Below are positions 580 to 13,210 of a stretch of 25,117 nt of DNA, piece after piece; position 1 is the first letter of the stretch, and the number at the start of each line of letters is the position of its first letter. The position numbers and the translations under genes are program-made. Source of the stretch: a virus. The stretch covers positions 1 to 25,117 of the IMG/VR virus record IMGVR_UViG_3300046369_000646, one strand, 5' to 3'. Under the pieces are notes generated by a model. It had not been told where the DNA came from and did not search any database. It worked only from the letters and a program-made list of their open reading frames with translations.

Positions 580-2308
580 AATTTCTTGTTTGTCCTTCGA
601 GTCTAGCACCAAGGTTGACGGCATCTCCAATGACGGAATAGTCAAATCTAAGTTCTGACCCCATGTTTCCAACGATACACTCCCCAGTGTTAATACCAAT
701 ACCCACATTGATAGGAGGGAGGCCGAGTGGTTTGAGTTCTTCATTAAGTTCCTTGGTTGCAATTAGTATTTCTTCTGCAGACTTGACTGCCATCTCGGCA
801 TGGTCGGGACAATCCAAAGGTGCATTCCAAAAACTCATAATACAATCACCCATATACTTGTCAATTGTTCCATTATTATTTAGTATTATCTTTGTTTGCA
901 TGTCAAGGAATTTGTTAATGAGTTCCACTAATCCCTCGGGGTCGTCTTGTTTCATGTAGTGTTCACTGATTGGAGTGAATCCACATATGTCCATGAACAT
1001 GAATGTAAGTTCCTTTCTATCTCCACCTAATTTAAGTAAATCGGGATTCTCTGCGAGTTGGTCAACCATGTCGGGAGATAAATACTTTTGGAACTGCTTC
1101 TTAATTTCTTCTTTGAGTTGGTAGGTTGTATAGTATTGATTGAAAGAGGCATGACCGAAAACAATTAAGGAGGCAATCGATGAAAAGAAGGTATCGAAAA
1201 GAACGAGCTCTGAAGTCCAAATATAATAACTCCCGAAGATTTGAAGTCCTACAAGTGTTAGACTCATTATCCCCGAAAGAATTGTGGGAAGTTTGTAAAC
1301 CATCCCCAATATCAATACAAGAACTGTCAACAGAAGAACAATCTCAAGCAATCCAAGATAGTAGGATTGTTGTATTTGAACTCCTGACAAAACGGTTTGG
1401 ATATGGTTCGCTTGCACTTCGTGAGGATACAATACACCCACTGGAGTTGAAACTGGATTATTCAATCCCTCAGCAGTTAACCCCCATACAAGAATCTTAT
1501 TAGTAAGATTTAGATTAGGTAAGTCTACTGCAGAAACCCGTTGGAACTCATTCCAATAGGTTACCATAACATCACTCGTTGGAGTGGTGGTAATAGGTTT
1601 GTCCCTACCCATTCGTAACCATTCAACACCTATCTCTGTAATTCTAGTTTGATATGAAGGTTGGTCTGATAATGCACGTAATGTCTCTAGTGCAAGAGAA
1701 GGATATACTTGGTCGTTTGCAGTAACGATTAAAGGTATTGACCTTGTTGTTCCGTCAAAGTTTGCAGTACCCGAAACACTAGGTGTTGCAACTGTAACTC
1801 CAACTCCATAAGTATTGTCCTGAAGAATCCTGATAGGACTTGATATTCCTGAAAAGTTCCACAACCAATCTTTTGCTTCACCTCCACCGAATGTAGAGTT
1901 ACCTACGAATGGTGCAGAACCTTTTTGAGTTTGTGTTGTTGGTGCAGCTGATAAAATTGTTAATCTGTTTATCAATCCTTCTGCAAAAATCTCATCTTCT
2001 CCTGACTGTCTATCAGGTTGGTTAAAGAGTTGAGTGAAAACATGTGTATTAGTGTAATGAGTGTTAAGGAGTAAATCCCTATAGATACTACGTTTTATCG
2101 GATACTGTCCGAACACTTCAAGTGATTTTTCGTCTATGTCTACTAAGACGATGTCATCAACCTGAACTTTCTCCTGACTCTGATGAAGAACATCAAAGTA
2201 AGACCAAGTGATATTATCTACGAGATAGGGAGACCAAATCTTAAGTCCTACAAATACACCTATGGTGATTAGGACTGTTTTCCAACTATACAACTGTCGG
2301 CCAAGCAA
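455..2308 (-). CDS. CHASE2-domain class III adenylate cyclase
   Basis: This is a 617-residue membrane-bound cyclase. Residues about 1-25 form an N-terminal membrane anchor. About 30-310 are a CHASE2 extracytoplasmic sensor (start VDDIVLVDIDEKSL). Three membrane helices follow at about 317-388, then a class III nucleotide cyclase domain at about 434-610. The catalytic set looks complete: metal-binding D440 (FMDICGFT) and D488 (KYMGD), purine-selecting K484 and D556, and transition-state N565 and R569 (NLGAR). K and D at the selecting positions indicate ATP, so cAMP is the expected product. There is no ATG start: TTG at 2308 opens the frame, and a second TTG at 2293 overlaps the upstream 49-residue gene by 8 nt and is equally plausible. 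Neither has a clear Shine-Dalgarno site, so translational coupling is likely. In a phage this would alter host cAMP signalling (inference). Confidence 0.88.
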   Translation of the reverse strand: MLGRQLYSWKTVLITIGVFVGLKIWSPYLVDNITWSYFDVLHQSQEKVQVDDIVLVDIDEKSLEVFGQYPIKRSIYRDLLLNTHYTNTHVFTQLFNQPDRQSGEDEIFAEGLINRLTILSAAPTTQTQKGSAPFVGNSTFGGGEAKDWLWNFSGISSPIRILQDNTYGVGVTVATPSVSGTANFDGTTRSIPLIVTANDQVYPSLALETLRALSDQPSYQTRITEIGVEWLRMGRDKPITTTPTSDVMVTYWNEFQRVSAVDLPNLNLTNKILVWGLTAEGLNNPVSTPVGVLYPHEVQANHIQTVLSGVQIQQSYYLGLLEIVLLLTVLVLILGMVYKLPTILSGIMSLTLVGLQIFGSYYIWTSELVLFDTFFSSIASLIVFGHASFNQYYTTYQLKEEIKKQFQKYLSPDMVDQLAENPDLLKLGGDRKELTFMFMDICGFTPISEHYMKQDDPEGLVELINKFLDMQTKIILNNNGTIDKYMGDCIMSFWNAPLDCPDHAEMAVKSAEEILIATKELNEELKPLGLPPINVGIGINTGECIVGNMGSELRFDYSVIGDAVNLGARLEGQTRNYEGVDVLLGEATYLQCPNRTFTKVDSITVKGKSEPVVVYTI

Positions 2309-2435
2309 AAAAGAATATGTATAGACAAATACATATCAATGAAAGACCAAGAAATGCAGACCAAATTCCTGACCACATTTTTCTTCTTCTTTTAATTCGA
2401 TATTCGTTTACTAGTTCTACTACTCTTTTATCCAT
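2286..2435 (-). CDS. 49-residue single-span membrane protein
   Basis: Starting at ATG 2435, this short frame encodes a basic N-terminus (MDKRVVELVNEYRIKRRRK) followed by one hydrophobic helix of about 22 residues ending in FFFAWPTVV. The start overlaps the IscU stop codon by 8 nt (ATGGATAA), and the end overlaps the start of the cyclase gene, so it is embedded in the operon. The positive-inside arrangement suggests N-in, C-out. I recognise no family. Its tight position between the Fe-S scaffold and the cyclase argues that it is genuinely translated, but there is no independent Shine-Dalgarno site. Confidence 0.6.
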   Translation of the reverse strand: MDKRVVELVNEYRIKRRRKMWSGIWSAFLGLSLICICLYIFFFAWPTVV

Positions 2436-2826
2436 CACTTTCCCAATCCTCTATTGCCTTTCTAATTGAATCTTCTGCAAGAACACTGCAGTGTAATTTA
2501 ATTGGTGGTAATTCCAATGCATCTGCAATGTCCTTATCCTTAATTTCTTTTGCTTCTTCTATGGTCAACCCTTTAAGTAAATCCACAAATAGTGAACTGG
2601 ATGCAATTGCACTTCCACAACCATACGTTTTAAACTTGACATCGACTATACGATTGTTGCCTGGGTCTATTTTCAATTGAAGTTTCATTACATCACCACA
2701 TGCAGGAGCTCCTGCCATTCCAGTTGCAACAGTTGGGTCTTTTGGGTCAAATCTTCCAACAGAGAATTGTTCGGGTGCATTGAGAACACCTTCGAATCTA
2801 TCGATTACTTTCTTTGAATATGCCAT
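2428..2826 (-). CDS. iscU: IscU/NifU-N type Fe-S cluster scaffold protein
   Basis: This 132-residue protein spans a complete IscU fold. The three cluster-ligand cysteines are all present: C43 in GAPACGDV with D45, C70 in TYGCGSAIASSS, and C113 in LHCSV. It also has LPPIK at 106-110, the counterpart of the LPPVK motif by which IscU binds its HscA/Hsp70 chaperone. Length and motifs match bacterial IscU. The protein should accept sulfur from a host cysteine desulfurase and hand clusters to target proteins, possibly including phage-encoded ones. No desulfurase or chaperone is encoded nearby, so it would depend on host IscS/HscA. A TATAAATA octamer sits 5 nt before the ATG inside the 3' end of the preceding gene, and no Shine-Dalgarno site is visible. 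Confidence 0.93.
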   Translation of the reverse strand: MAYSKKVIDRFEGVLNAPEQFSVGRFDPKDPTVATGMAGAPACGDVMKLQLKIDPGNNRIVDVKFKTYGCGSAIASSSLFVDLLKGLTIEEAKEIKDKDIADALELPPIKLHCSVLAEDSIRKAIEDWESDG

Positions 2827-2827
2827 A

Positions 2828-3403
2828 CTAGTATTTATACACGAAAATGTTCTTTCCTTTAGTTCTATGATAATGTGCAGTACCTTCTTCTAATGCATCT
2901 TTAATCTTTTGTGCATATGGTTTCAATACACCATGTGCATCCTTTGTCCTAATCGTCTTGTCGTGGTATCTTCGGTCTCCATGTATGATAACTCTATCAA
3001 ACTTAGTTTGTCCTATGTAATCGAAGTTGGTTGCTTTATAGATGATTCCCTCATGTCCATATTCATTATCTGCATAACTAACTACAGTCTTACCACCCCA
3101 ATCCTTTTTAAGTTGTCTTAGGGATGCACCAATAAAAAAACTTTCAGTGTTCTTTGGAGTGTCATCAATGCAACAGAGTCTTCTAAGTTCTATTACATCC
3201 TCTTTGTTATCTCCGTATTTCATCCACTGGTTCATCATAGCAAACCTACCATAGAACATTGCACCTTTCATTTGTTCTTCGTGGAACAATGCATAACAGT
3301 AATCTGCAATACATCCGTTGATTGATTTTGAATAGTGATGAGTTTCTATGAAGTCTTTTATGTCTGACCTCTCGACTCTTTTGACCGACCAGTTCTCAAA
3401 CAT
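2828..3403 (-). CDS. Mom-like GNAT-fold acyltransferase (putative DNA modification)
   Basis: The 191-residue protein has the conserved layout of phage Mom-like proteins: an ELRRLCCIDDTPKNTESFFIG block near the centre, then LRQLKKDW, then VVSYADNEYGHEGIIYKATN and FDYIGQT. These blocks resemble the acyl-CoA-binding core of the GNAT fold as seen in the Mu Mom family, which modifies adenines in phage DNA to evade restriction. The function here is assigned by family only; a different acylation target is possible. The gene starts with a TAATG overlap at the end of the 86-residue membrane protein and ends immediately before iscU. Confidence 0.72.
   Translation of the reverse strand: MFENWSVKRVERSDIKDFIETHHYSKSINGCIADYCYALFHEEQMKGAMFYGRFAMMNQWMKYGDNKEDVIELRRLCCIDDTPKNTESFFIGASLRQLKKDWGGKTVVSYADNEYGHEGIIYKATNFDYIGQTKFDRVIIHGDRRYHDKTIRTKDAHGVLKPYAQKIKDALEEGTAHYHRTKGKNIFVYKY
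2832..2839 (-). promoter_or_regulatory. Late-promoter-like TATAAATA directly before iscU
   Basis: The minus strand reads TATAAATA-CTAGT-ATG. The octamer matches the T4 late promoter core exactly and ends 5 nt before the iscU start. With late-promoter geometry, transcription would begin at or next to the start codon, giving a leaderless or nearly leaderless message. It lies just upstream of the acyltransferase stop codon. Confidence 0.5.
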
Positions 3404-3663
3404 TAACTAAATTTCTTTTGTATCCTTTTGTACATATAATATATAGAGAGTCCGTAAGTTGCAAGTATTGTCATTGTGAATCCTATGTAGACCAACTCTA
3501 TAGGTGTCAAGAAAAGAATTTGCCATACGAAATCAGATGCAGCTTCTACGTCACCCAAAGATTCAGGCATAACCATATCGTTTTCTTCGAAGAGGTCTAA
3601 TATGTCGTCATACTCTTCTTCAGTTAGACATTCATAAAACTCGGGTGGACATTCTGATTTCAT
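3403..3663 (-). CDS. 86-residue membrane protein downstream of curlin
   Basis: I choose ATG at 3663 because it forms an ATGA overlap with the stop of the curlin-like gene; an upstream in-frame ATG at 3705 would lie inside that gene. The product has an acidic N-terminal half (LTEEEYDDILDLFEEND) and one membrane helix at about 47-72 followed by a short basic tail (YKRIQKKFS), which predicts N-out, C-in topology. No family is recognised. Its coupling to a secreted curlin-repeat protein suggests a role at the inner membrane during secretion or export, which is inference. Confidence 0.7.
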   Translation of the reverse strand: MKSECPPEFYECLTEEEYDDILDLFEENDMVMPESLGDVEAASDFVWQILFLTPIELVYIGFTMTILATYGLSIYYMYKRIQKKFS

Positions 3664-4295
3664 TGTTGTGTGACTGATACTGAACAACCAGTAGTTGTTT
3701 GACAATTTTGTGTTAGTGTATATGATTTGTTTGTTGAACCTTCTTGTAAAAGATTCAATATTGTTGGATAGTTTCCTTGTAGTGTAATTTGTGCATTATG
3801 ATTTCCCGAACCCTTCTGCATGATACTGGAATCTGACCCAGTTGCACTTCCATAGAAGTAAGTGTGTGCATAGTGTGAACCACTACCCGACTGGTGTATT
3901 TCGTGGTCTACTGAATTTGAGTGAACGTCTATGTTATGTGTATGACTTCCGTTTTGATATACATCTACTGTATTACTATTGCCCCATATGTGTCTACCAT
4001 AAGTTGCACCACCACTTTGTTCTACGTTTTCAGTATTGTTAGTTCCGTCTACATCACCACCCCATGACTTTCCTGGCCCCCAGTAAGAGACCCAAGATAT
4101 AGAGTTTCCATTTCCTGTTTGCAATAGATTGAATGTGTTTCCACTATGTGCAAAAGAAAACTTAATTTCATTATCATAACCTTGTTGTGTTATGTTGAGT
4201 TCCACATCTCCCGAGGAAACCTGCTCAACATGGACGTGGTTATCCCCAGCCCATGTTAGAGGTGTCAATAAAATTAATAATAAACTTTTTTTCAT
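3660..4295 (-). CDS. Secreted curlin-repeat protein (second curlin)
   Basis: The start is ATG 4295 (TAATG overlap with the preceding small gene), which places a signal peptide MKKSLLLILLTPLTWAG at the N-terminus; the ATG at 4307 would add four residues in front. The mature part is rich in N, G, Q, S and carries about seven curlin-like strand-loop units: ITQQGYDN, LLQTGNGN, VEQSGG, VYQNGSHTHN, IHQSGSG, IMQKGSGNHN and LLQEGSTN. These fit the Q-x-G-x-x-N pattern of CsgA/CsgB repeats. The total is 211 residues. The C-terminus contains C198 and C204 (C-x5-C), unusual for curlins and shared with the other curlin here. It is expected to be exported by Sec and then by CsgG to form extracellular amyloid-like fibre. 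Confidence 0.85.
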   Translation of the reverse strand: MKKSLLLILLTPLTWAGDNHVHVEQVSSGDVELNITQQGYDNEIKFSFAHSGNTFNLLQTGNGNSISWVSYWGPGKSWGGDVDGTNNTENVEQSGGATYGRHIWGNSNTVDVYQNGSHTHNIDVHSNSVDHEIHQSGSGSHYAHTYFYGSATGSDSSIMQKGSGNHNAQITLQGNYPTILNLLQEGSTNKSYTLTQNCQTTTGCSVSVTQQ

Positions 4296-4444
4296 TAGAT
4301 AATCCATAAAAATAATAATGTAAATACTACTCCCTTACTGAATGATAACCATAACATATGGTAATCGTCTAGTCTCATTGCATCTTGAAATCCAGTTAAC
4401 TGAAATTCATGCCATTGACGAAGTTTCTCTAATATACTATTCAT
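4295..4444 (-). CDS. 49-residue single-span membrane protein in curli cluster
   Basis: ATG 4444 is preceded by a good Shine-Dalgarno site (AGGAGA, 6 nt before ATG). The frame encodes an amphipathic N-terminus (MNSILEKLRQWHEFQLTGF) and ends in a hydrophobic helix (GVVFTLLFLWII). The stop overlaps the start of the second curlin gene (TAATG), so the two are translationally coupled. No family is recognised. The strong ribosome binding site makes this a convincing small gene. Confidence 0.75.
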   Translation of the reverse strand: MNSILEKLRQWHEFQLTGFQDAMRLDDYHMLWLSFSKGVVFTLLFLWII

Positions 4445-4453
4445 ATATTTCTC

Positions 4454-5590
4454 CTAGTTTGTTTGTGTGATGGTAATATTTATAGACGAACCATCACCCA
4501 CCTTAATTAGTGAACCTTTTTCGTCTGTAGTGGTTCTAATCGTTGCTTGTGCATAGATTGGGATTTTAATAGAGATAATTCCCTGTACTTCCCTGTAGAA
4601 CCAAATTTGACCAAGACCCTTGTCAACAATTGTATTGTATTGAGAATCTTTATCAAACCCAAATGCAGTTCCTTCTATCCTTGCAACTCCGAAAGGGTCT
4701 GCCTTTCTTTCTGCATCAATACCAACCTTTCGGTCAATCTCTAAAACTACATCTAGTAAATCTTGTAAGAAATCGACATCTAATAAGTCTCTGTCGAGTT
4801 CTGTATATTCCAACTCATCATCTTCAAAGTAGTCCTCTTCTAAATCATTGAACTCTAGGAAGTCCACATCTAAAATATTACTACTATCATTTTCTCCACC
4901 ACTGGATTCTTCTGCAACTTGTTCTTGAATCTCTTCGGGTGGATTGACAATAAACATGTTATCAATCATACTTGCATCAATACCACTAACCGTTACTGGT
5001 TTAGTAGGTGAATCATCAAAAGAAGATACCATTGTCGCCTGATATGCTTCATCAAGTGTGATACTTCCTCCTGCATTACTGACTATGATTTTTCCCGAAG
5101 GATTACCAAATTCATCGGGAAGCAATATAACCAATGACCTTCCGATTTCATCAATACTGGTAGTGAAATCTGTTCCAACCACAGCAATTTGTGCTGTAGG
5201 TGTCGACACTTTAATATTACTTTTCTTTATCTTACCACCGAAACCCGAAGCAAATCTTGCTGTTCCTTGTGCCATTCGTATGGCCATTTTGGATTTGGAT
5301 GGGTCGGGGTCGTAATATACCTCGTCAATCCAAACCTTGGAGTGTTCTGTTAAGTCCAGTCGTTCTTCACCTTTGAACTCAATCTTCATTCTCCCATTCT
5401 GAGTTTGTGCTGTATCATACATCAACACATCGGGTTCAGTATTTGCACTGACAACAGAAGACTCTCCGTCTCTCTGAAGTCCTGCTGAACCTTTGTATTC
5501 TATAATCTCACCTATCGGTTCACCTTGAAGTGAACCAATAAGTAAAAGACTACTCGCCAGAATCTTTCTGAACGATATCAATATTTGCAT
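4454..5590 (-). CDS. Secreted FecR-domain protein
   Basis: The 378-residue product starts with a signal-peptide-like segment (FRKILASSLLLIGSLQGEP). A FecR domain follows at about residues 60-195, including MAIRMAQGTARFASGFGG, VSTPTAQIAVVGTDF and a glycine-rich beta segment. FecR domains occur in periplasmic sensors and in secreted surface proteins; here no transmembrane signalling helix is seen after the signal peptide, so a periplasmic or surface role is more likely than iron signalling. A strongly acidic block (about 240-285) precedes a C-terminal beta-rich domain. The start overlaps the end of the first curlin gene by 41 nt with no clear Shine-Dalgarno site; TTG at 5581 is an alternative. 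Position between two curlins suggests a structural or assembly partner (inference). Confidence 0.72.
   Translation of the reverse strand: MQILISFRKILASSLLLIGSLQGEPIGEIIEYKGSAGLQRDGESSVVSANTEPDVLMYDTAQTQNGRMKIEFKGEERLDLTEHSKVWIDEVYYDPDPSKSKMAIRMAQGTARFASGFGGKIKKSNIKVSTPTAQIAVVGTDFTTSIDEIGRSLVILLPDEFGNPSGKIIVSNAGGSITLDEAYQATMVSSFDDSPTKPVTVSGIDASMIDNMFIVNPPEEIQEQVAEESSGGENDSSNILDVDFLEFNDLEEDYFEDDELEYTELDRDLLDVDFLQDLLDVVLEIDRKVGIDAERKADPFGVARIEGTAFGFDKDSQYNTIVDKGLGQIWFYREVQGIISIKIPIYAQATIRTTTDEKGSLIKVGDGSSINITITQTN
4477..4484 (-). promoter_or_regulatory. Late-promoter-like TATAAATA before the second curlin unit
   Basis: TATAAATA on the minus strand lies within the last codons of the FecR-like gene and 32 nt upstream of the 49-residue gene start. 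That distance leaves room for a normal leader with the AGGAGA ribosome binding site. It may give separate late expression of the small membrane protein, second curlin and 86-residue protein. Confidence 0.45.
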
Positions 5591-6278
5591 TAGAAGTCAC
5601 GAAAGATACATCAATAATACCACTACATGACTGACCACTTGGACAACCTGTAGTTCCACTTTTCTGAATGATATCTATATCATTTGAACCACCAGTTAAG
5701 ATTGCAGTGATTTTGTTATCAGTTGCATCTGATTGGTTAGTGTTAATATCATTTGAATCTCCAGTAATAGTCCAGTTCCAAACTGCATTATCACTATCTA
5801 TTTTAGTAGTGAATACGTTTGAATCTCCAGTTAACACTAAATCCCAGTTAAGGTATTCTGCAGATGCATCATATCCGACATCAATATCGAATGTATTTGA
5901 ATCACCTGTCACAGTTCCTAACATGTTTAAGTTATCTGCACTACCAACATATCCTACGTTCCAATCCATTGAGTTAGAGTCACCAGTAAAAGTTAAATTT
6001 ACTGTTGAACTATCTGCAAGGAAAGGCCCGAACAACTTATTGTTATCTCCGTCTTGTAATAATGTTAAACTGTTAGATGCACCAGTGATAATCATATCAG
6101 CAGATGTTCCTGAGAAATCATCTAATCCGACTTTGTTTCCATAACCCCTTTGAGTGAAATTTAAAATTAAATTGTCACCTGTCTGTTGCAACCAAATCTC
6201 GTTATCATCTGCACCAGCAGATACGAAACCAGTTAACCCTAATGATAAACATAATGTAATGAATAATTTATTCCTCAT
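5550..6278 (-). CDS. Secreted curlin-like repeat protein (first curlin)
   Basis: The 242-residue product begins with a clear signal peptide (MRNKLFITLCLSLGLTGFVSAG). The mature region opens with curlin-like units (WLQQTGDNLILNFTQRGYGN) and then carries six T-G-x-S-N loops at residues 65, 98, 124, 150, 172 and 195, the last spaced 22-26 residues, close to the 22-23-residue repeat of CsgA. C212 and C218 form a C-x5-C near the C-terminus. The start lies inside the end of csgG (11-nt overlap) with GAGG about 7 nt upstream. The order CsgF-CsgG-curlin supports export through CsgG. TGDSN loops are diverged from canonical curlin, so fibre properties may differ. Confidence 0.82.
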   Translation of the reverse strand: MRNKLFITLCLSLGLTGFVSAGADDNEIWLQQTGDNLILNFTQRGYGNKVGLDDFSGTSADMIITGASNSLTLLQDGDNNKLFGPFLADSSTVNLTFTGDSNSMDWNVGYVGSADNLNMLGTVTGDSNTFDIDVGYDASAEYLNWDLVLTGDSNVFTTKIDSDNAVWNWTITGDSNDINTNQSDATDNKITAILTGGSNDIDIIQKSGTTGCPSGQSCSGIIDVSFVTSNANIDIVQKDSGE

Positions 6279-7176
6279 TTTGTTTTTCCTCTATTTCATG
6301 GAGTTCGTTTCTCCCATGAGTTCCATGGGGGTGACGATGTCCATCTTTAATTACCCAAAAACCTCTATCGTGTCCTTGGTATATTAATTCTAAGACTGCA
6401 AGTTCAATTGCAGAACGAGTAGCTTTCGACACCCCTTCATTTTTTGCAACCCCGTCTTCAACTTCCACTAATTGGGTGTCCATGTCCATAAATTTGAACA
6501 CGTCATACCCACCACCAGTACTAAGAATAGTCTTAGTGGTTTGTACATTAAGTAATATTTCTCCTGTAAGAACTGAGATTCCTCTTAGACTTACAGTCAC
6601 CACATCTCTTCGATAGGAAACCGATGCTCCAACACCAAGTGTTCTTGCACCCCTACCACCACTTTCGATGTTAGTGTCATAACCAATTATCCCACCATCA
6701 AGTAGGATACCAGCAAACAAGAGAGGTTGAATACCCGTTGGGGAATCCTCATTACCTTCTTGATTTGCAAAGTCTTCTCTAGCAGAACGAACAATCTGTC
6801 TCTCTCTTACAAGTGCATCTAAATTTGTTCTCTCTACTACTCTAAACCATTTACCTTTTCCAGCAGTCTTAAGTGCATCAATCAAGAATGCTTCTGCACC
6901 TTGGGTCACTGCAGTTGAGAATGATGCAACTCCATCCATCCTCTTCCTCTGTCCTGTCTTATCTAAGAATCCATAAACTGCAACCACTGGCATTGTCTCT
7001 GCAGCTGGTAAGTTTGAAAGTTCTTGATAGGTTGGTATCTTCACAACCTTTGCTTTTTCTATACAAGTGCCTACCTTACTCATTACAGTTGAGTCACACG
7101 AATCATAAGACGAAGGAATACTTGCACACCCACTGGTGAGCAAGATAACTAATCCTACCAATCCGACAATTCTCAT
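6268..7176 (-). CDS. csgG: CsgG curli secretion channel lipoprotein
   Basis: The 302-residue protein has a lipoprotein signal with lipobox LLTSGC (C17), then the CsgG core: MPVVAVYGFLDKTGQ, RVVERTNLDALVRERQI, PLLFAGILLDGGIIGYDTN, GARTLGVGASVSYRRDVVTVSLR and a C-terminal helix region with AIELAVLELI. This is the outer-membrane oligomeric pore that secretes curlins in Enterobacteria and relatives. Length is slightly above E. coli CsgG (277), from a charged, histidine-containing tail (GHRHPHGTHGRNELHE). It follows csgF by 2 nt and overlaps the first curlin gene. It appears intact. In the phage it would need host Lol and Sec export. Confidence 0.93.
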   Translation of the reverse strand: MRIVGLVGLVILLTSGCASIPSSYDSCDSTVMSKVGTCIEKAKVVKIPTYQELSNLPAAETMPVVAVYGFLDKTGQRKRMDGVASFSTAVTQGAEAFLIDALKTAGKGKWFRVVERTNLDALVRERQIVRSAREDFANQEGNEDSPTGIQPLLFAGILLDGGIIGYDTNIESGGRGARTLGVGASVSYRRDVVTVSLRGISVLTGEILLNVQTTKTILSTGGGYDVFKFMDMDTQLVEVEDGVAKNEGVSKATRSAIELAVLELIYQGHDRGFWVIKDGHRHPHGTHGRNELHEIEEKQNEE

Positions 7177-7178
7177 TT

Positions 7179-7643
7179 TTAGAAACTTCCTGTACCTACT
7201 GGTATGTCTAAAGTTGTTGTTGTTCCGTCTTCTGCAACGATTGTTAGTCTGATAAATTCTGCACCATCTTCACCAACCAATTTTTCGTATGTGACTGTAT
7301 TACCTTCAATAGAGAAGACACCATATGATGCTGCTTCTCCGTTAGAAAACATATTTTCTACTAACTGTTTTGCTATCTGAGCATAAATTCTACTTTCGAC
7401 ATTTCTAAGAAATTTTGCAAGGGTAGTGTTATTTGCCTCACGTTCTGCTTTTGCAATTCGGTCTTCTATGTCTTGTGCTATCTTATCACGTCTTGATTTT
7501 TCTTGATTCTCAATCGTAAGATAATGTGATGATTGTCCTATTCCACTGAATGAAGGACTTTTGAATTTGTGAACTATTTCATCTGCACTTACACTAAGTG
7601 CAAAACAAATACTAATTATTACTATCTTTGGTTTTATCATCAT
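7179..7643 (-). CDS. csgF: CsgF curli assembly factor
   Basis: The 154-residue protein has a signal peptide ending in SVSA and then HKFKSPSFSGIGQSSHYLTIENQ, which matches the N-terminal CsgF segment (PSFGG...LL) that inserts into the CsgG pore. A central helix (about 45-95) and the C-terminal beta-hairpin ending in IPVGTGSF also fit CsgF. In curli systems CsgF couples the secretion pore to fibre nucleation at the cell surface. The start region is ATGATG (7643 or 7640), overlapping the preceding gene by about 32 nt, with GAGG about 10 nt upstream. It is immediately followed by csgG. CsgE is not encoded in the window. Confidence 0.88.
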   Translation of the reverse strand: MMIKPKIVIISICFALSVSADEIVHKFKSPSFSGIGQSSHYLTIENQEKSRRDKIAQDIEDRIAKAEREANNTTLAKFLRNVESRIYAQIAKQLVENMFSNGEAASYGVFSIEGNTVTYEKLVGEDGAEFIRLTIVAEDGTTTTLDIPVGTGSF

Positions 7644-7896
7644 TTACAGTTTTCCTCTTTTCTTCGTTCTCTTTATATTCAAGAACAACATCAACTTTCT
7701 GTTGAAGTCTAATCAAATCTTGGTCAAGCATTCTTACTTGGTCAATCACTTTGATTAATGCAAAGTGTTGTTTTTCAATTTCGGGTTCTAATTGTTCACC
7801 CACAAACCACCAAATATAGTATACAAAGTATCCAAGTCCAACCATCATGACGATTGGAAATCCATATTCTGATATCAGTTGTGCAATTTCTTCCAT
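7612..7896 (-). CDS. 94-residue membrane/coiled-coil protein, holin-like
   Basis: The product has one hydrophobic helix at residues 13-33 (GFPIVMMVGLGYFVYYIWWF) followed by a charged helical tail (QVRMLDQDLIRLQQKVDVVLEY) predicted to be coiled coil. The layout recalls BhlA/UviB-type small holin-like proteins (short N-terminal helix, GFPI motif, one membrane span, charged helical tail). Similarity is by architecture only, so a holin role is tentative. It lies just upstream of csgF, whose start is inside this gene, and 2 nt after the 97-residue gene of similar layout. Confidence 0.65.
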   Translation of the reverse strand: MEEIAQLISEYGFPIVMMVGLGYFVYYIWWFVGEQLEPEIEKQHFALIKVIDQVRMLDQDLIRLQQKVDVVLEYKENEEKRKTVNDDKTKDSNN

Positions 7897-7898
7897 AA

Positions 7899-8192
7899 TT
7901 AATCCCTTCTTACATCAAGTTTCCCGTCCTCTATAAAATTCTCTGCTCTTGCAACTCTCTCTATATCGGGTCTTAACTCTAATGCACTTGACACTAACAA
8001 GTCTATCTTAATCATTTCGTTAGACATTGTTCTTGCACGATTCTCTAAACTCTTACAAAACATGGTAAGGGTCTTGATATCATCCACAACTCCTTCAAGT
8101 ATTTGTTTGATAACTGTAAAGATAAAGAATCCCATCACTAAACTTCCAGCAATAGGGGCTCCGACTTCACTTATCAATCCAAATATATCCAT
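7899..8192 (-). CDS. 97-residue membrane/coiled-coil protein, first gene of curli unit
   Basis: The product has a membrane helix at about residues 10-30 (GAPIAGSLVMGFFIFTVIKQI) and a long charged helical region after it. It shares the size and order of parts of the following 94-residue protein, including the opening pattern (LISEVGAPI versus LISEYGFPI), suggesting an ancient duplication. AAGGG precedes ATG 8192 closely, and a near-consensus late octamer CATAAATA lies 5 nt before the ATG. It is the first gene after the terminator at 8225-8252 and so probably opens the curli transcription unit. Function unknown; holin-like or scaffold. Confidence 0.62.
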   Translation of the reverse strand: MDIFGLISEVGAPIAGSLVMGFFIFTVIKQILEGVVDDIKTLTMFCKSLENRARTMSNEMIKIDLLVSSALELRPDIERVARAENFIEDGKLDVRRD

Positions 8193-8197
8193 ACCCT

Positions 8198-8205
8198 TAT
8201 TTATG
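8198..8205 (-). promoter_or_regulatory. Near-consensus late promoter before the curli unit
   Basis: CATAAATA matches TATAAATA at seven of eight positions, lies 5 nt before ATG 8192 and directly downstream of a strong terminator. The terminator-then-promoter order is what a new transcription unit needs. The 5-nt spacing repeats that of iscU. Confidence 0.4.
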
Positions 8206-8224
8206 ACAATGGTCTAGTGAAGAC

Positions 8225-8252
8225 ACAAAAAAAGGGGTCATAAAGACCCCTT
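8225..8252 (-). terminator. Rho-independent terminator
   Basis: On the minus strand AAGGGGTC pairs with GACCCCTT (8 bp, 5-nt loop; arms 8245-8252 and 8232-8239) and runs straight into a T-rich tract (8225-8231). This ends transcription of the 89-residue SAP-like gene and upstream genes before the curli unit. Confidence 0.9.
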
Positions 8253-8269
8253 CTTAATAACTAAGTATT

Positions 8270-8539
8270 CTACTTCAGTTTCGCATGAATTTCATTAATA
8301 ACTGCAGCTTTAGTACCCGATTTTTTTACTTTAAGATTCTTCTTATCAGCAAGTTCAATCAATTGGTTTTTAGTTAACTTCTTAAGCTCTGCCTTAGATG
8401 TTATACCGTTACCATTTTTATCAGCAACTGGTGCTGACTTGGTTTTAGCAGCAGATGACACTGGTGTTTTACTTCCTTTGTCTTTATTAAAGAAATAAAC
8501 AACACCTACTACTATTAGTATTCCTGCTATAATTTCCAT
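8270..8539 (-). CDS. Membrane-anchored SAP-like domain protein
   Basis: The 89-residue protein begins with a membrane helix (MEIIAGILIVVGVVYFF), continues with an Ala/Ser/Lys/Thr-rich linker, and ends in a helix-extended loop-helix of about 35 residues (LKKLTKNQLIELADKKNLKV, then AVINEIHAKLK). That end resembles SAP or Rho-N-like nucleic-acid-binding domains. The start has a good ribosome binding site (GGGAGA, 6 nt before ATG). It lies directly before the terminator. A membrane-tethered DNA or RNA binder is suggested by the layout; the function is not known. Confidence 0.7.
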   Translation of the reverse strand: MEIIAGILIVVGVVYFFNKDKGSKTPVSSAAKTKSAPVADKNGNGITSKAELKKLTKNQLIELADKKNLKVKKSGTKAAVINEIHAKLK

Positions 8540-8558
8540 AATTTATCTCCCGTTATAG

Positions 8559-8765
8559 TTATTTATCCAGTAAAGGATTTTTGTCTTTTGCCTTACCAAT
8601 TGCAAGTGCTAAGACTTCCAAGTATTTATACACTTTTGCCCAGACTTTGTCGTCTTTAGGTGTTGGTGTTAAACTTATGATGAGTGATGCAATTGAAATG
8701 ACAATTGGTATAATCATTAATAAGTTCCAAATTCCCATAATAAAAGATATGATGCCTGAAAACAT
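8559..8765 (-). CDS. 68-residue hydrophobic phage membrane protein
   Basis: A strongly hydrophobic N-terminal half (FIMGIWNLLMIIPIVISIAS) forms one long helix or a hairpin, followed by LTPTPKDDKVWAKVYKYLEV and a basic C-terminus. ATG 8765 has AGGAGA 6 nt upstream. The PTPKDD block followed by a second helix looks like a conserved small phage membrane protein, possibly holin-like, but I cannot name the family. It follows regA by 34 nt and precedes the SAP-like gene. Confidence 0.66.
   Translation of the reverse strand: MFSGIISFIMGIWNLLMIIPIVISIASLIISLTPTPKDDKVWAKVYKYLEVLALAIGKAKDKNPLLDK
8623..8630 (-). promoter_or_regulatory. TATAAATA inside the 68-residue gene
   Basis: An exact TATAAATA on the minus strand lies within the 68-residue gene, about 83 nt before the SAP-like gene start. 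It could add late expression of that gene. Being inside coding sequence it may equally be chance. Confidence 0.25.
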
Positions 8766-8799
8766 ACTTTCTCCTATATTAGTTATATCTAACTAGTAT

Positions 8800-9213
8800 T
8801 TAGGTATTTTTAGTGTTACCTATGGAGTATTTTGTTGTTAACTTCCACTCATTCTTTTCTTTATGAGGAATAATCTTAATTTGGGATAATGGTGCAATAG
8901 GTTCTGAAACCATGCTTTCATCTACAATTGATATAAGTTTCCATTGTTCTAATAGTTTAACAATAGTGTTTCTTCTACCTATATCTGAATCATCTATACT
9001 TGTAGGTTTACCATCTAATTTGAATAGTTCTTTGAAGTGTGTAATGTAATATTTACCACGTTTATGGAGTATGTGGCATGACTGGAACAGTTCTTGTTCT
9101 CTTCTTGATGCAACACCTATGCGTGTAAGTGTTTCTCTTATCTTTAAAAAGTCGTCTTTTTCGGGGAATGTTATTTCTACTAGGTCTTTGACTAGATTTT
9201 CATTCTCATTCAT
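8800..9213 (-). CDS. regA: RegA-like translational repressor
   Basis: The 137-residue product contains the RegA core: DFLKIRETLTRIGVASR, LFQSCHILHKRGKYYITHFK, ELFKLDGKP and RRNTIVKLLEQWKLISIVD. T4 RegA (122 residues) binds translation start regions of early mRNAs, including those of replication genes, and represses them. ATG 9213 overlaps the gp62 stop by 8 nt (ATGAATGA); an upstream in-frame GTG at 9225 is less likely. The C-terminal tail is longer than in T4. The 62-regA order is the same as in T4, but gene 43 (DNA polymerase) does not follow; small membrane proteins follow instead. Confidence 0.9.
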   Translation of the reverse strand: MNENENLVKDLVEITFPEKDDFLKIRETLTRIGVASRREQELFQSCHILHKRGKYYITHFKELFKLDGKPTSIDDSDIGRRNTIVKLLEQWKLISIVDESMVSEPIAPLSQIKIIPHKEKNEWKLTTKYSIGNTKNT

Positions 9214-9598
9214 TGTTTTGTCCACCTGTTTTCATTCTGTTTTTCAACTCACGGACTTCTTTATCACTCAACACTTCCATGTATTCTTTTGCTTTCAGTG
9301 TTGATACTTTATAATAGTCTTTAATTGTGTCTAATTTTTTACTAAGATAGGGTTTACTCCATTGAGAAAACCTTTGTCTTTTCCTAAGAGTATTTAGTAA
9401 AAAGAGGTATTGAAGACGGTGGTCTAAACCATGTCTACAATTCATTTCATTAGTAAAAAATACAGAATCTTGGTGGTAAGATAATGATTTGTTTATAAGG
9501 AATGGGGCATAGTTCTTCTCTTCGACATCATCAATCATGATATCGTTTTTGTCATAAGAGACAGACTTGACAAAGTCAAAAGGGTTGCGTTTAGACAT
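9206..9598 (-). CDS. 62: Clamp loader small subunit gp62
   Basis: The 130-residue protein begins NPFDFVKSVSYDKNDIM and contains YAPFLINKSLSYHQDSVFF, NEMN, LDHRLQYLFLLNTLRKRQRF and SQWSKP, all characteristic of T4 gp62. With gp44 it forms the gp44/62 clamp loader that opens and places the gp45 clamp on DNA. It is shorter than T4 gp62 (187 residues), like other marine T4-like versions as I recall. It begins with a TAATG overlap at the end of the 89-residue gene and overlaps regA by 8 nt. Confidence 0.88.
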   Translation of the reverse strand: MSKRNPFDFVKSVSYDKNDIMIDDVEEKNYAPFLINKSLSYHQDSVFFTNEMNCRHGLDHRLQYLFLLNTLRKRQRFSQWSKPYLSKKLDTIKDYYKVSTLKAKEYMEVLSDKEVRELKNRMKTGGQNNE

Positions 9599-9867
9599 TA
9601 AGTGTTTCTTACATAAGAATCAAGAAGGTCTTGACCTCTAAGTGGTGTTCCTAGTATAACTGTTTCGTTTTCTGAAGTAGTTCTTTTAACACTGCCATCA
9701 TTAAATTCTACATCTAAAACACTTTTACCACCTTCAGTATCTTGTGGTCTGTTGTCATAATGCATTGAACCCAATGAATGAGCATGTACTGATTTAACAC
9801 CTTGAGACCATTTTTCTGCTTCCAGTTTTAATCTTTGTCTCTCAACTCTATCGTCATATTGACTCAT
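9598..9867 (-). CDS. 89-residue hypothetical between genes 44 and 62
   Basis: ATG 9867 has GGGAGA 6 nt upstream and forms TAATG with the preceding 33-residue ORF. The product is hydrophilic, starting with a charged helix (MSQYDDRVERQRLKLEAEKW) and then a short beta-rich part (VLDVEFNDGSVKRTTSENET). No family is recognised. It sits inside the clamp-loader cluster and is cotranscribed with both loader subunits, so a replication-associated role is possible (inference). Confidence 0.72.
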   Translation of the reverse strand: MSQYDDRVERQRLKLEAEKWSQGVKSVHAHSLGSMHYDNRPQDTEGGKSVLDVEFNDGSVKRTTSENETVILGTPLRGQDLLDSYVRNT

Positions 9868-9968
9868 TATTTTCTCCCTTTTAAAAACATTCTGTCTGCT
9901 TTTCTTTGCATTGATTTCTCTACTTGTGAATCAAACCACATTCTAAACCATTGTCTTAGTTTACCCAT
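9867..9968 (-). CDS. 33-residue basic microprotein between genes 44 and 62
   Basis: ATG 9968 overlaps the gp44 stop by 8 nt (ATGGGTAA) and the frame ends in TAATG with the next gene. The peptide is aromatic and basic (MGKLRQWFRMWFDSQVEKS, then ...RMFLKGRK), predicted to be an amphipathic helix. The same 8-nt overlap style occurs at three other gene junctions here, which supports translation. No family is known to me. Confidence 0.55.
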   Translation of the reverse strand: MGKLRQWFRMWFDSQVEKSMQRKADRMFLKGRK

Positions 9969-10905
9969 TTTTGAATTTACACTCCGACATAATCTCTGTT
10001 AGACATGCAGTGAAGTTAATCTCTGAGTCCATTGCAAATGCAGATTTGTATTGATAGTCTGCAATGATTAGAACTGCAGCTGGTATTGAAGATGGTTCTA
10101 ATCTTTGTTCTAATGCATTGAACACTTTTCTGAATAGTGTATTGAAGTCGTTATCAGAATTCTGACCGACCCACTTTCTCATTCCACTCCAATTCTTTTC
10201 TTTAATCATATCAATAAGTGGGGTGAACTTCTCTTCTGACAAAGATGATAGTATACCCGAATCAATAACACCACCAACACCATATCTCTGAATCTCATTC
10301 AGAACTCTTCTGAAGTCGGGAAAGAATCTCATAACTAATTCTGCAAGAACCTTTTCGTCTGCTTCTATGTTTTCGATATGACAAATACTTTTACATCTTA
10401 ATAACATCTTTTGTGCAAGTACTGGTTTTTCTTTTGGTGCAATTTTAAAATCAATGACTGTTGTTCTTGAATGTAATGCAGGTATGATTCTGTTTTTGTA
10501 ATTACAAGTAAAGATAAATCTACAGTTAGAAGAGAACTCTTCTATGAATGCTCTAAGTGCAGGTTGCACTGATTCTGCAGAAATGTAATCTGCCTCATCA
10601 AGGATAACGACCTTTGGGCCACCTCCCAATGAAACAGTACTTGCAAAGTTTTTGATTTTAGTTCTTAAGGTATCAATAAGTCTACCTTCATCAGAACCAT
10701 TGATTACAATAAAGTCTGCACCTAACTCATTACAGAGAGCCCTAGCAACAGTTGTTTTACCAACACCTGCAGAACCACAAAGTAAAAGATTAGGAATCTC
10801 TCCCTGTTTGACAAACTCCAAAAATTGGTCGTGAAATTCTTTTGGTAGTATCGTTTCCTCAATCTTTTGTGGTCGATACTTTTCTACGTATAAAAATTCG
10901 TTCAT
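9961..10905 (-). CDS. 44: Clamp loader ATPase subunit gp44
   Basis: The 314-residue AAA+ protein has Walker A GSAGVGKTT (44-52), Walker B with DEAD (103-106), sensor-1 region IFTCNY, and the SRT motif (146-148) in which R147 is the arginine finger typical of RFC-type loaders. The C-terminal collar follows. It is the ATPase of the gp44/62 loader that places gp45 on primer-template DNA. Length is close to T4 gp44 (319). The ATG at 10905 is preceded by GGGGAG about 13 nt upstream, a somewhat long spacing. The 106-nt leader holds two hairpins (see 10940-11001). Confidence 0.95.
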   Translation of the reverse strand: MNEFLYVEKYRPQKIEETILPKEFHDQFLEFVKQGEIPNLLLCGSAGVGKTTVARALCNELGADFIVINGSDEGRLIDTLRTKIKNFASTVSLGGGPKVVILDEADYISAESVQPALRAFIEEFSSNCRFIFTCNYKNRIIPALHSRTTVIDFKIAPKEKPVLAQKMLLRCKSICHIENIEADEKVLAELVMRFFPDFRRVLNEIQRYGVGGVIDSGILSSLSEEKFTPLIDMIKEKNWSGMRKWVGQNSDNDFNTLFRKVFNALEQRLEPSSIPAAVLIIADYQYKSAFAMDSEINFTACLTEIMSECKFKNG

Positions 10906-10939
10906 AATAAGTTAGATACTCCCCACCGAGTTTCTAGTA

Positions 10940-11001
10940 CAGTCCACCATGATGAGTTGGACTGCTCCCGTGATAATAGTTGAGACTTGAACTTTAATCA
11001 C
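10940..11001 (-). promoter_or_regulatory. Two tandem hairpins in the gp45-gp44 gap
   Basis: The longest gap in the replication cluster holds two inverted repeats. Hairpin one: arms 10970-10981 and 10990-11001, 10 of 12 positions paired, 8-nt loop. Hairpin two: CAGTCCA/TGGACTG at 10940-10946 and 10958-10964, 7 perfect pairs, 11-nt loop. Neither is followed by a T-tract, so a simple terminator is unlikely. They could set gp44 expression relative to gp45, for example as an attenuator, RNA-processing site or RegA-responsive leader. Confidence 0.55.
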
Positions 11002-11011
11002 TCCAAACAAC

Positions 11012-11680
11012 TTAAGATGCTGTATAAGAACTATCGGGTTCTAATGCAATGAAGTACTCAACTTCAACATCTGTATTTTTAAAGTGTGATATTCCTTTTG
11101 AGGAAACTTGCACTTCATAGTTACCTGTTAGAATTTTTAGATTCTCAATCTTGAAATTCATTTGGTATTTATCTCCATTACCTTCTGCAACCGTTCTACT
11201 AAATGTATTTGATGTTGCATTCTTTTTGTCCTTTACAGTAAGTGTGACAGCAGTTCCATCAGATTCTAAAACTAAATCATTGACACCTAGAACACTAGAT
11301 GCTTTCTGTAAGTCTGTTAATAGAGTTGATGTTATTGTGAATGACACTTCTGAAGAAGGCATGGTTATCATTTTCTCGGGTGCAACAACCATTCCTTCAG
11401 ATGCATAAAAATAATCCATCTTTGAATTGGTGTCTTCTACCGACAATTTTTCGGGGTTGAAATTAAACTCGGGGTCGTCTAACAAAGAAGTTGCACCCAA
11501 GAACTCTGGCAAATTATATATTGCAAAATCCTGTGGGAATGATTCTTCGATTGTAGCAATCGCAAGAATGTTTTTCATGTTAGAAATAGTTTCGAGTTTA
11601 TTTCCAGTTTTAACTCGTATACCCGAGTTTATGGTTGAGAAGTTTTTTAGAACGTCTCTTGTTTCATTACTAATTTTCAT
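11012..11680 (-). CDS. 45: Sliding clamp gp45
   Basis: The 222-residue product has the T4 gp45 pattern: SNETRDVLKNFSTINSGIRV near the N-terminus, FAIYNLPEFLGATSLL, and the C-terminal YFIALEPDSSY. T4 gp45 is 228 residues and forms the trimeric processivity clamp for DNA polymerase and a coactivator of late transcription with gp55. I choose ATG 11680 (TGATG junction with the DUF3310 gene, AAGGAG 9 nt upstream); a GTG directly before it is possible. It is followed by a structured gap and then gp44. Confidence 0.93.
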   Translation of the reverse strand: MKISNETRDVLKNFSTINSGIRVKTGNKLETISNMKNILAIATIEESFPQDFAIYNLPEFLGATSLLDDPEFNFNPEKLSVEDTNSKMDYFYASEGMVVAPEKMITMPSSEVSFTITSTLLTDLQKASSVLGVNDLVLESDGTAVTLTVKDKKNATSNTFSRTVAEGNGDKYQMNFKIENLKILTGNYEVQVSSKGISHFKNTDVEVEYFIALEPDSSYTAS

Positions 11681-11982
11681 CACTTGTGTTTCTCCTTATC
11701 GTGAACATGTAACATAAAGAGAGCATAGTGCAACACTTTTAGTAAGTCAGCCCTATTCCTCCCACCTTTCTTTCCGTATCGCTGTGCATATTTCATTATG
11801 TTTCCGATACAAAAACCTTCACCGTGTCCACTGTCAATTATAAATTCAGTAGACTGGTATTTGTTTAAACTATAATGTTGGTCGTAAGTGTTATCAATAT
11901 AAGAGGCAAGTTCCTTAAGGGACTTGTCCTCGTTATATTTGTAGTCTATTGACTTGACTTTTTTACCGAACATATTAATCAT
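11680..11982 (-). CDS. DUF3310-family protein
   Basis: The 100-residue product contains the DUF3310 signature: a FCIGNIMKYAQRYGKKGG block followed by RADLLKVLHYALFML. Such proteins occur in many phages, usually beside replication or nucleotide-metabolism genes; the biochemical role is unsettled. ATG 11982 overlaps the stop of the AAA+ ATPase gene by 8 nt (ATGATTAA). The gene shares its transcript with the AAA+ ATPase and gp45. Confidence 0.78.
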   Translation of the reverse strand: MINMFGKKVKSIDYKYNEDKSLKELASYIDNTYDQHYSLNKYQSTEFIIDSGHGEGFCIGNIMKYAQRYGKKGGRNRADLLKVLHYALFMLHVHDKEKHK

Positions 11983-13210
11983 TATACTCTGAAGACTCTG
12001 ATTCGTCTAGAGGGTTTTCAGCATTTAAATCAACCCCTGCATCAATCTTAGAATAGAGGTCGAGGATACTATTTCTAGTCTCTTCGTCAAATCTTGAAAT
12101 ACACATTGTGATTGACTTGAGTTTGTCATTGAACATTCTGAATGCATTGACAATGTGAACCAGTCTTCTAGTCGTAACAACATCATCTATTGCACCTTCA
12201 TAGTAGGTTTTTCTGATAATGTCTGCCCAGTCAACAAGTTTGTGACAGAACTCGGTATCAACTTCACCAGTCAATGCCATTTCTTTTTTAAGAATAGACC
12301 TTTCAGTAGTCACTGGTGGATATTCTTGTTGCATTGTGATTGCAAATCTTTCCAACATTGCTTCATTCATGATTTGAGTCCCGATGAATTTACCATCGTC
12401 TGACCCTTGTCCTTTAGTGTTTGCAGTTGCAAGGATTGTGAAACCCTCTGCAGGTGAAACCCACTCACCAGTTTTCTTGATTAGGTATCCTTTACCTTCA
12501 AGAACTGATTGTAGACACATCAACTTGTTTGAACCAAGGTCGACTTCATCTAATAGAAGTACAGCACCTTTTCTCATTGCTTTGATAACTGGGCCTTCTC
12601 TGAAGAGAACGTCCCCACCTTGTAAAGTGTGACCACCCATCAAATCATCTTCATCAGTCTCAATAGTAATATTGACCCTGTAAAGTTCTCTCTTCAACTG
12701 AGCGCAAGTTTGTTCAATCATTAATGTTTTACCATTACCACTTAGACCAGTAACAAATACTGGAAAGAAGATTTTAGACTTAATGATATTCTTGATATCT
12801 TTGAAGTGTCCAAAAGGAACATAGTTTGACATCTTCTCGGGAATGATTTTGACGTTGTCAAGTGAGTTGACAGCAGTGGTTTTTGCAGCCACTGGCATAT
12901 TAGATGGATTTGCAATTGCAGGAATCGGTGCAGATTTTACAGGAGTTTGAACTTCGGGTTCATAACCACCATTGTAACCACTTACAACTGCATGTAGATT
13001 GAAGATACCGTTATCTTTAAAACTGTATCTTGATGATTTAACCCAGTATGGCATACCACCCACTTTATCAAAATCTTCTTTAACGAAGTTGGATTGATTA
13101 GGATATGCTGAGGTTAAACTCTCTAGGAACTCCTTCCTATCGGGTGTAAAATGAAAGTCCTTCCCGTCAATGACGATGGACTCGGTTCTGTCATAAGTTC
13201 TTTGATTCAT
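11975..13210 (-). CDS. MoxR/CobS-like AAA+ ATPase
   Basis: The 411-residue protein has an N-terminal region of about 125 residues, then a AAA+ core with Walker A GLSGNGKT (155-162), Walker B LLLDEVD (218-224) and the sensor-1 stretch ILATANTKGQG. This is the MoxR/CobS group, which remodels proteins or inserts metal ions together with a VWA-domain partner. The VWA protein is encoded upstream at 13771-16155 with a matching promoter, so the two probably work as a pair. In marine T4-like phages such genes are often named cobS, but no cobN or cobalamin genes are present here. ATG 13210 has AAGGAG upstream; the promoter at 13255-13284 gives a leader of about 38 nt. Confidence 0.88.
   Translation of the reverse strand: MNQRTYDRTESIVIDGKDFHFTPDRKEFLESLTSAYPNQSNFVKEDFDKVGGMPYWVKSSRYSFKDNGIFNLHAVVSGYNGGYEPEVQTPVKSAPIPAIANPSNMPVAAKTTAVNSLDNVKIIPEKMSNYVPFGHFKDIKNIIKSKIFFPVFVTGLSGNGKTLMIEQTCAQLKRELYRVNITIETDEDDLMGGHTLQGGDVLFREGPVIKAMRKGAVLLLDEVDLGSNKLMCLQSVLEGKGYLIKKTGEWVSPAEGFTILATANTKGQGSDDGKFIGTQIMNEAMLERFAITMQQEYPPVTTERSILKKEMALTGEVDTEFCHKLVDWADIIRKTYYEGAIDDVVTTRRLVHIVNAFRMFNDKLKSITMCISRFDEETRNSILDLYSKIDAGVDLNAENPLDESESSEYND

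Follow-up and report, generated by a model that had tools for sequence, protein, structure and literature searches.

Curli genes are found in abundant ocean phages, and the proposals for their unclear purpose extend from cell clumping to pinholin activity. The unit analysed here raises the question of what the two small membrane proteins at its head contribute. The window, meaning the whole stretch of DNA analysed, is a 25,117-base virus record from a T4-like marine phage. The features of its curli (T8SS) unit are as follows:

8229-8255, minus strand: terminator-like hairpin closing the upstream gene (6 such sites in 6 kb versus 2.4 expected from shuffles)
8198-8205, minus strand: CATAAATA, octamer resembling a T4 late promoter, 5 nt ahead of the A start codon (from the sequence)
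7899-8192, minus strand: protein A, 97 aa, membrane span and helix with a conserved C-terminal DGKxDxRRD-type tail (ORF; PHROG 18771; AlphaFold2)
7612-7896, minus strand: protein B, 94 aa, membrane span and coiled coil with invariant D..R.LD.D.IRL..K (ORF; PHROG 18771; AlphaFold2)
7179-7643, minus strand: csgF (PF10614, E 1e-11)
6268-7176, minus strand: csgG (PF03783, E 6.7e-48), N-terminus lipoprotein-signal-like by eye
5550-6278, minus strand: curlin-like secreted repeat protein (weak PF07012 match, 0.71; position as in HTVC008M and Melnitz), with a signal peptide judged by eye
4454-5590, minus strand: FecR-domain protein (PF04773, E 1.3e-10)
3660-4307, minus strand: second curlin-like secreted protein (weak PF07012 match, 0.089; Melnitz synteny)
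455-2308, minus strand: CHASE2 adenylate/guanylate cyclase (PF05226, 2.7e-27; PF00211, 5.2e-16)

The unit is ordered A, B, csgF, csgG, curlin-like gene, fecR, second curlin-like gene, other small genes and CHASE2 cyclase, with a gap of 2 nt between A and B and an overlap of 32 nt between the B and csgF reading frames. A phage curli unit is recognised by csgF, csgG and curlin-like genes standing together, as they do here, the curlin matches in the window being weak (0.089 and 0.71); Sec-type signals on the curlin-like proteins were judged by eye. The placement of the two proteins at the head of this unit, as given in the preliminary description, was confirmed, with the hairpin and the late-type CATAAATA directly upstream of A, and CsgF and CsgG following. 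The interval between curlin-like gene and cyclase (2428-3705) encodes a NifU/IscU-looking protein (2428-2826) and a 191-aa protein (2828-3403), both named by eye, and a 100-aa membrane protein (3403-3705, also named by eye) that had no match in the Pfam scan.

The Pelagiphages HTVC008M (from gp011) and Melnitz (from gp97) share the gene order of the window, i.e. two small hypotheticals, csgF, csgG, a curlin-associated gene, a gene in the fecR position, another gene and the cyclase; the small genes are annotated 'hypothetical protein', and HTVC008M has one additional tiny ORF before csgF. In the accessible parts of three papers on Pelagiphage type VIII units (PMC7029224, PMC9599517 and PMC9004378), the small genes are labelled hypothetical, are labelled 'HK' or go unmentioned, and there is no description of a paralogous membrane pair, no obligate pairing and no type-I-like-exporter context. 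Within these parts, PMC9599517 places curlin, FecR and cyclase in the Pelagiphage curli unit and has 'HK' genes before csgF, which we infer to be A and B, and PMC9004378 proposes a pinholin-like role for Melnitz CsgG and states that csgA/B are absent. Contrary to the latter statement, the Melnitz record annotates two curlin-associated repeat proteins beside csgG (9898-12692 of locus L138). Searches of the main texts in one open-access library found no description of a pair-cyclase link or of exporter replacement.

A and B were described at the outset as related membrane/coiled-coil proteins with a common opening, and this resemblance exceeds chance. BLASTP aligned 78 residues without gaps at 23% identity (E 3e-7), the Smith-Waterman score was 68, with maxima of 53 among 2000 shuffled and 55 among 2000 locally shuffled sequences, and profile-profile comparison gave a probability of 98.8 (E 7.6e-17, 78 columns). 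Both proteins belong to PHROG 18771, A through residues 1-85 (positions 2-86 of 93, E 1.1e-23) and B through residues 2-88 (positions 2-88 of 93, E 5.2e-25), as do 13/13 diverse members scanned. The record of PHROG 18771 gives no function and merges both paralogues, whereas here the family forms two clades that occur together in every classified two-copy locus. A tree of 202 representatives divided into 67 A and 135 B sequences with a split support of 1.0; four tips in a 'wrong' position were attributed to gene order, since clade profiles gave one A and one B per locus.

Locus sets were built from the best 80 matches per scan, and the frequencies given for listed loci describe this sample. The pooled set of 330 distinct listed loci mixes pair-, CsgG- and cyclase-seeded loci, those with shorter flanks being dropped for each count. 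Exactly two copies of the family were present in all 174 distinct loci with at least 3 kb on either side, among the matches listed, and in 9/9 large phage records searched whole; the seven of the 330 listed loci with a single copy each had less than 3 kb on at least one side and were excluded from the counts. One A and one B were assigned by clade profiles in 317/317 loci with both copies classifiable, among the matches listed (order A-B in 307 and B-A in 10; smallest A/B score gap 65.5 bits), with six two-copy loci that had one classifiable copy only standing outside this count. On sequence grounds, A and B thus present themselves as an obligate pair of homologous small proteins.

AlphaFold2 predicted a helix at residues 3-70, a short helix at 77-84 and a low-confidence tail for A (mean pLDDT 82.3), and a short helix at residues 2-11 followed by a long helix at 13-92 for B (mean pLDDT 87.5). 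We assign the membrane span to the hydrophobic stretch that opens the long helix, after the GxPI motif, and coiled coil to the remainder. Across 44 members, invariant positions were G, L, R, D and R plus a tail D.R.D in A, and G, D, R, LD.D.IRL and K in B, with similar results for 34-35 members, and most of these positions lie in the tail rather than in the span. The N-terminal flank contains on average 0.4 basic and 2.0 acidic residues, and the 20 residues past the span 2.3 basic and 1.9 acidic residues in A and 2.5 basic and 3.4 acidic residues in B. The tail being more basic than the N-terminal flank, the positive-inside rule weakly favours a cytoplasmic coiled coil, with the B tail net acidic. 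A and B probably lie in the inner membrane with the N-terminus out, the coiled-coil tail in the cytoplasm and little periplasmic mass.

In a phage collection of 50,697 records, the pair was found at E<=0.1 in six, namely two HTVC008M entries and four Melnitz strains, each of which also has csgG; CsgG occurs in seven records, the seventh being 1.5 kb long. Among the best 80 CsgG-seeded loci, 66 extend for at least 2 kb ahead of csgG; two family copies are present in 65/66, the exception being L210. The pair-seeded set comprised 253 distinct listed loci, from which loci numbered in the CsgG and cyclase scans were excluded even if found again by the pair scans. Where these listed loci extend at least 5 kb to either side, csgF/G accompany the pair in 70/75 and a CHASE2 cyclase in 72/75; two of the same 75 have TolC/HlyD without csgFG, and L282 and L351 are without both csgFG and CHASE2 cyclase. 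At a minimum of 8 kb on either side, the listed pair-seeded loci have the CHASE2 cyclase in 24/24 cases and csgF/G in 23/24. The co-occurrence with csgFG anticipated in the preliminary description was therefore borne out, homologues standing overwhelmingly beside csgFG and not mostly without them (70/75 pair-seeded and 65/66 CsgG-seeded loci, among the matches listed). The 108 pooled listed loci with at least 5 kb on either side divided into 99 with csgF/G, 5 with TolC/HlyD, 2 with the cyclase only and 2 with none; 106 of the 108 carry a CHASE2 cyclase, and one further pair locus (L351) carries a soluble class III cyclase. Of the best 80 cyclase-seeded loci, 42 had the pair and 38 were without it. 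Each of these 38 stops short of 8 kb to one or both sides of the cyclase, and the pair was present in 21/21 listed cyclase-seeded loci with at least 8 kb on both sides. The cyclase is a slightly more faithful partner of the pair than csgFG. Across 84,980 genomes of bacteria and archaea, a single scan yielded 12 pair relatives, in MAG or binned contigs, of which L282, L289 and L291 were examined for phage genes.

Two loci, L282 (15.7 kb) and L291 (12.4 kb), hold the pair with no tracked curli, cyclase or exporter genes nearby; both are phage-like, with baseplate genes and a primase. The whole MAG record behind L282 contains no class III cyclase and has CsgG on contig C76, which may be unrelated to the pair contig. 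In the record of L291, CsgG is matched weakly (2.5e-6) and two cyclases are present, on contigs that may likewise be unrelated to the pair contig; the genes after the L291 pair encode XdhC, a trypsin-like protein and a transaldolase.

The tracked genes of the 108 listed loci form 15 strings, some being partial forms of others, which on our own reading represent eight curli and two type-I-like arrangements; pair and operon stay neighbours in all of them. The order pair-csgF-csgG-fecR-cyclase is found in 67/108, the pair faces an inverted operon led by the cyclase in 18 loci where the operon is complete and 4 where it is cut, and the pair is split by or interleaved with csgF(/csgG) in 3/108, with the remaining arrangements represented one to three times each. 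Retention of the pair through inversion of the operon argues for function and not shared transcription alone. Several loci within L258-L277 were considered as lacking csgFG and rejected as such, because an inverted cyclase lies beyond the pair, in some of them together with the complete curli operon. L271 has an inverted curli operon beyond the pair, L262 and L277 have CsgG further along the record, and the inverted cyclase suggests an inverted curli operon in the others.

In some phages the exporter itself is a different one. The pair and CHASE2 cyclase adjoin HlyD and a TolC-like outer-membrane protein in L289/L290/L294 (L294 is cut before these), L443, L449 and L445/L338, with an ABC-transmembrane-like protein in the L338 unit and a cadherin-domain protein in L289 and L338, whose 1,299-aa counterpart in L445 matches the FecR profile. 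HlyD is also present in L296, L447/L365, L446/L354 and L453. The L445 record (148,056 b; may be incomplete) contains no CsgG, and its one cyclase adjoins the pair. Likewise, CsgG is absent from the L351 record (159,920 b; may be incomplete), whose only class III cyclase adjoins the pair and matches PF00211 (1.6e-8) with no CHASE2 match; no TolC/HlyD match was found within 16.3 kb around the L351 pair. The earlier proposal, in which the pair is the inner-membrane counterpart of the CsgG pore, is weakened, since pair and cyclase are kept where TolC/HlyD replaces csgFG, CsgG is absent from pair-bearing contigs of 160 kb and 148 kb, and the tail is probably cytoplasmic. A partner specific to CsgG is disfavoured, as the pair is not confined to loci with CsgG (TolC/HlyD units, L351).

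On a tree of 121 concatenated pairs from listed loci, exporter context changes six times, compared with a mean of 7.9 and a minimum of 7 for shuffled labels, so that non-curli loci are grouped little more than chance would group them. The type-I-like context falls on three branches of the pair tree (L289/L296/L449, L445 and L453; enclosing-clade supports 0.88, 0.78 and 0.94).

Two of these loci warrant separate description. L445 at 2513-12515 (likewise L289, L443, L449 and L338) has a phage-encoded type-I-secretion-like unit, then the CHASE2 cyclase, then the pair facing the unit; its 1,299-aa FecR-matching protein is without an obvious signal peptide (the L338 counterpart has a cadherin domain), and its 250-aa protein has an ABC-transporter-like counterpart in L338, with no ATPase match. 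At 9471-10703 of L351, the class III cyclase beside the pair is without CHASE2, and the cyclase type appears to have been replaced while the pair was kept.

The core of the T4-type late promoter is TAAATA. This hexamer is present in the 100 nt ahead of the first pair gene in 208/245 listed loci versus 272/4900 random windows, and within 100 nt upstream of A in 52/66 thinned A-first listed loci versus a shuffle mean of 10.6, suggesting that the pair is expressed late. Among listed loci, TAAATA is found upstream of csgG in 0/244, of fecR in 5/230, of csgF in 94/241 and of the cyclase in 64/251; being common ahead of csgF and the cyclase, it may mark promoters of their own there in some phages. 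The 5-nt spacing between octamer and start codon is the commonest in relatives (61 occurrences in listed loci), and the A message could be almost leaderless.

The reading we prefer, at a probability of roughly 40%, is that the pair acts at the inner membrane as a link between the phage cyclase and the late display of adhesins. The module would comprise a class III (usually CHASE2) cyclase, a secreted surface adhesin and an exporter, either CsgFG or TolC/HlyD type-I-like. The catalytic part of a CHASE2 cyclase is cytoplasmic, and the coiled coil that A and B would form may bind the cyclase, or else the helix driving the catalytic domain. A and B could then pass on or set cyclase activity during fibre or adhesin assembly, with cAMP tuned as adhesins are exported, and the purpose might be an altered surface of the infected cell. 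In sequence, the phage cyclase has CHASE2 and cyclase domains and A/B have neither. Because the pair stays by the cyclase where the curli exporter is replaced, a part in a signalling-and-adhesion module is favoured over an ordinary holin, and because cyclase and pair are found as well with a second adhesin exporter, unrelated to the first, adhesin display is favoured over lysis. A broader version is tentative and on balance doubtful: A/B and the cyclase might be a portable signalling core controlling exchangeable adhesin display (curli or type-I-secreted cadherin), with the pair a new inner-membrane cyclase partner or a cAMP-linked effector. A/B would offer a defined two-protein target for testing a phage cAMP signalling role.

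Several observations count against coupling to the cyclase. L282 and L291 have the pair with no cyclase nearby, and L210 has a cyclase without the pair. By tracked genes only, csgF directly follows the pair in 69 of the 108 listed loci and the cyclase adjoins it in 34, so csgF is the commoner neighbour; the topology is a weak guess, and exporter placement on the pair tree is near random. The list extends to the absence of a cyclic-nucleotide-binding effector from 9/9 large phage records, which would require a host receptor or a response by the pair itself, and to the active site of the cyclase. Asn is the usual transition-state residue in such cyclases, and Ser replaces it in 3/6 aligned phage cyclases. 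The six-sequence alignment divides the phage CHASE2 cyclases into two types, one with Ser at the Asn position.

The counts that favour csgF as neighbour also bear on a different explanation, in which the pair is a dedicated inner-membrane exporter part that energises, gates or docks CsgG and TolC/HlyD alike. Here csgF directly follows the pair in 69/108 listed loci and is interleaved with it in three more, the pair is retained with both exporter types, and the phage units are without a csgE gate (accessible part of PMC9599517, for Pelagiphages). Against such a part, the coiled coil is probably cytoplasmic with almost no periplasmic mass, L351 has pair and cyclase with no CsgG (160 kb) and no TolC/HlyD match (16.3 kb), and the inner membrane is already served by Sec and HlyD. 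Given the Sec-type curlin signals, and HlyD with the ABC-transmembrane-like protein in type-I-like units, the pair would be unneeded as a channel in either context. We regard an exporter part as rather unlikely. It is the form in which the two-membrane secretion assembly of the preliminary description survives, broadened to serve both exporters, while exclusivity for CsgG fails.

The late-type promoter sequence that the pair has to itself, and its frequent position as an independent unit facing the operon, would also suit a surface or superinfection membrane factor that shares the late adhesion island without contacting cyclase or exporter. Small T4 exclusion proteins are short membrane proteins too. 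Such a factor is improbable, as the linkage survives operon rearrangement and a different exporter, and no relative was found in a csgG-less genome of the phage collection.

The architecture of A and B, with a short N-terminus, one span and a charged tail, and their late-type promoter sequence would suit a holin, and a holin or two-component (pin)holin timing lysis or leaking the membrane late, possibly with CsgG, was considered in light of the pinholin-like role proposed for CsgG in the accessible part of PMC9004378. B matches PHROG 4898 ('holin') at 1.4e-5, and 9/13 members match it at E<=1. Membership of B was rejected, as its match covers residues/positions 1-20 only of a 62-aa family and ends at residue 20, and A is not among the PHROG 4898 matches. 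The likeness to PHROG 4898 and YvrJ (PF12841) lies in the opening LIxxYGFPI; YvrJ is matched by 3/13 members (best 0.15), with B at 11.4 bits versus a cut-off of 29.5. A BhlA/UviB-type identity, which the preliminary description had proposed searching for, found no backing in the profiles, PF10960 giving no match at E<=10 in the window or in 13 diverse members. For SPbeta yomB, which we take to be BhlA, hhalign gave B a probability of 11% (29 columns, E 0.0027) and A one of 0.1%. A and B resemble BhlA/UviB in being short, with one N-terminal span and a charged helical tail, and differ in having conserved tail motifs, two paralogues, and cyclase and adhesin neighbours instead of a lysis cassette. 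The relatives, in 6/50,697 phage records at E<=0.1, all with csgG, are less widespread than a general holin would be; a Melnitz-type cell-wall hydrolase is found in 6 listed pair loci (including Melnitz), at its nearest 1.5 kb away; and the invariant positions are mostly in the tail and not in the span. Together with the PHROG 4898 match ending at residue 20 and the missing PF10960 match, these points make a holin decidedly improbable.

That A/B are (truncated) histidine kinases, a possible meaning of the one or two short paralogous 'HK' genes that the accessible part of PMC9599517 puts here before csgF, is very improbable indeed, as the MNHD H-box-like stretch has its His in 16/63 located A representatives (of 67), the other 47 having Asn, Ser or Ala, and in 0/127 located B representatives (of 135), with neither a kinase nor a HisKA family matched in Pfam by any of 13 members at E<=10 and no HATPase_c in 9/9 large phage records (control positive in 14/14 genomes). 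The histidine kinase label was rejected for its unconserved phospho-acceptor His and the lack of HATPase_c. Matches of A/B to solved structures were discarded as generic coiled-coil resemblance (best E 0.0097), and an NCBIfam match of one member to an amidotransferase model (0.0007, others weaker) was judged chance.

L210, the exception among the CsgG-seeded loci, has csgFG, fecR and a CHASE2 cyclase without the pair, and a 123-aa protein with a transmembrane segment and coiled coil upstream of csgF instead. This protein type, unrelated to the pair, occurs at 3084-3455 of L210, 1545-1916 of L455 and 4325-4702 of L325, standing before the cyclase in L455 (near the contig end) and alongside the pair in L325. 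It is a possible functional stand-in for the pair.
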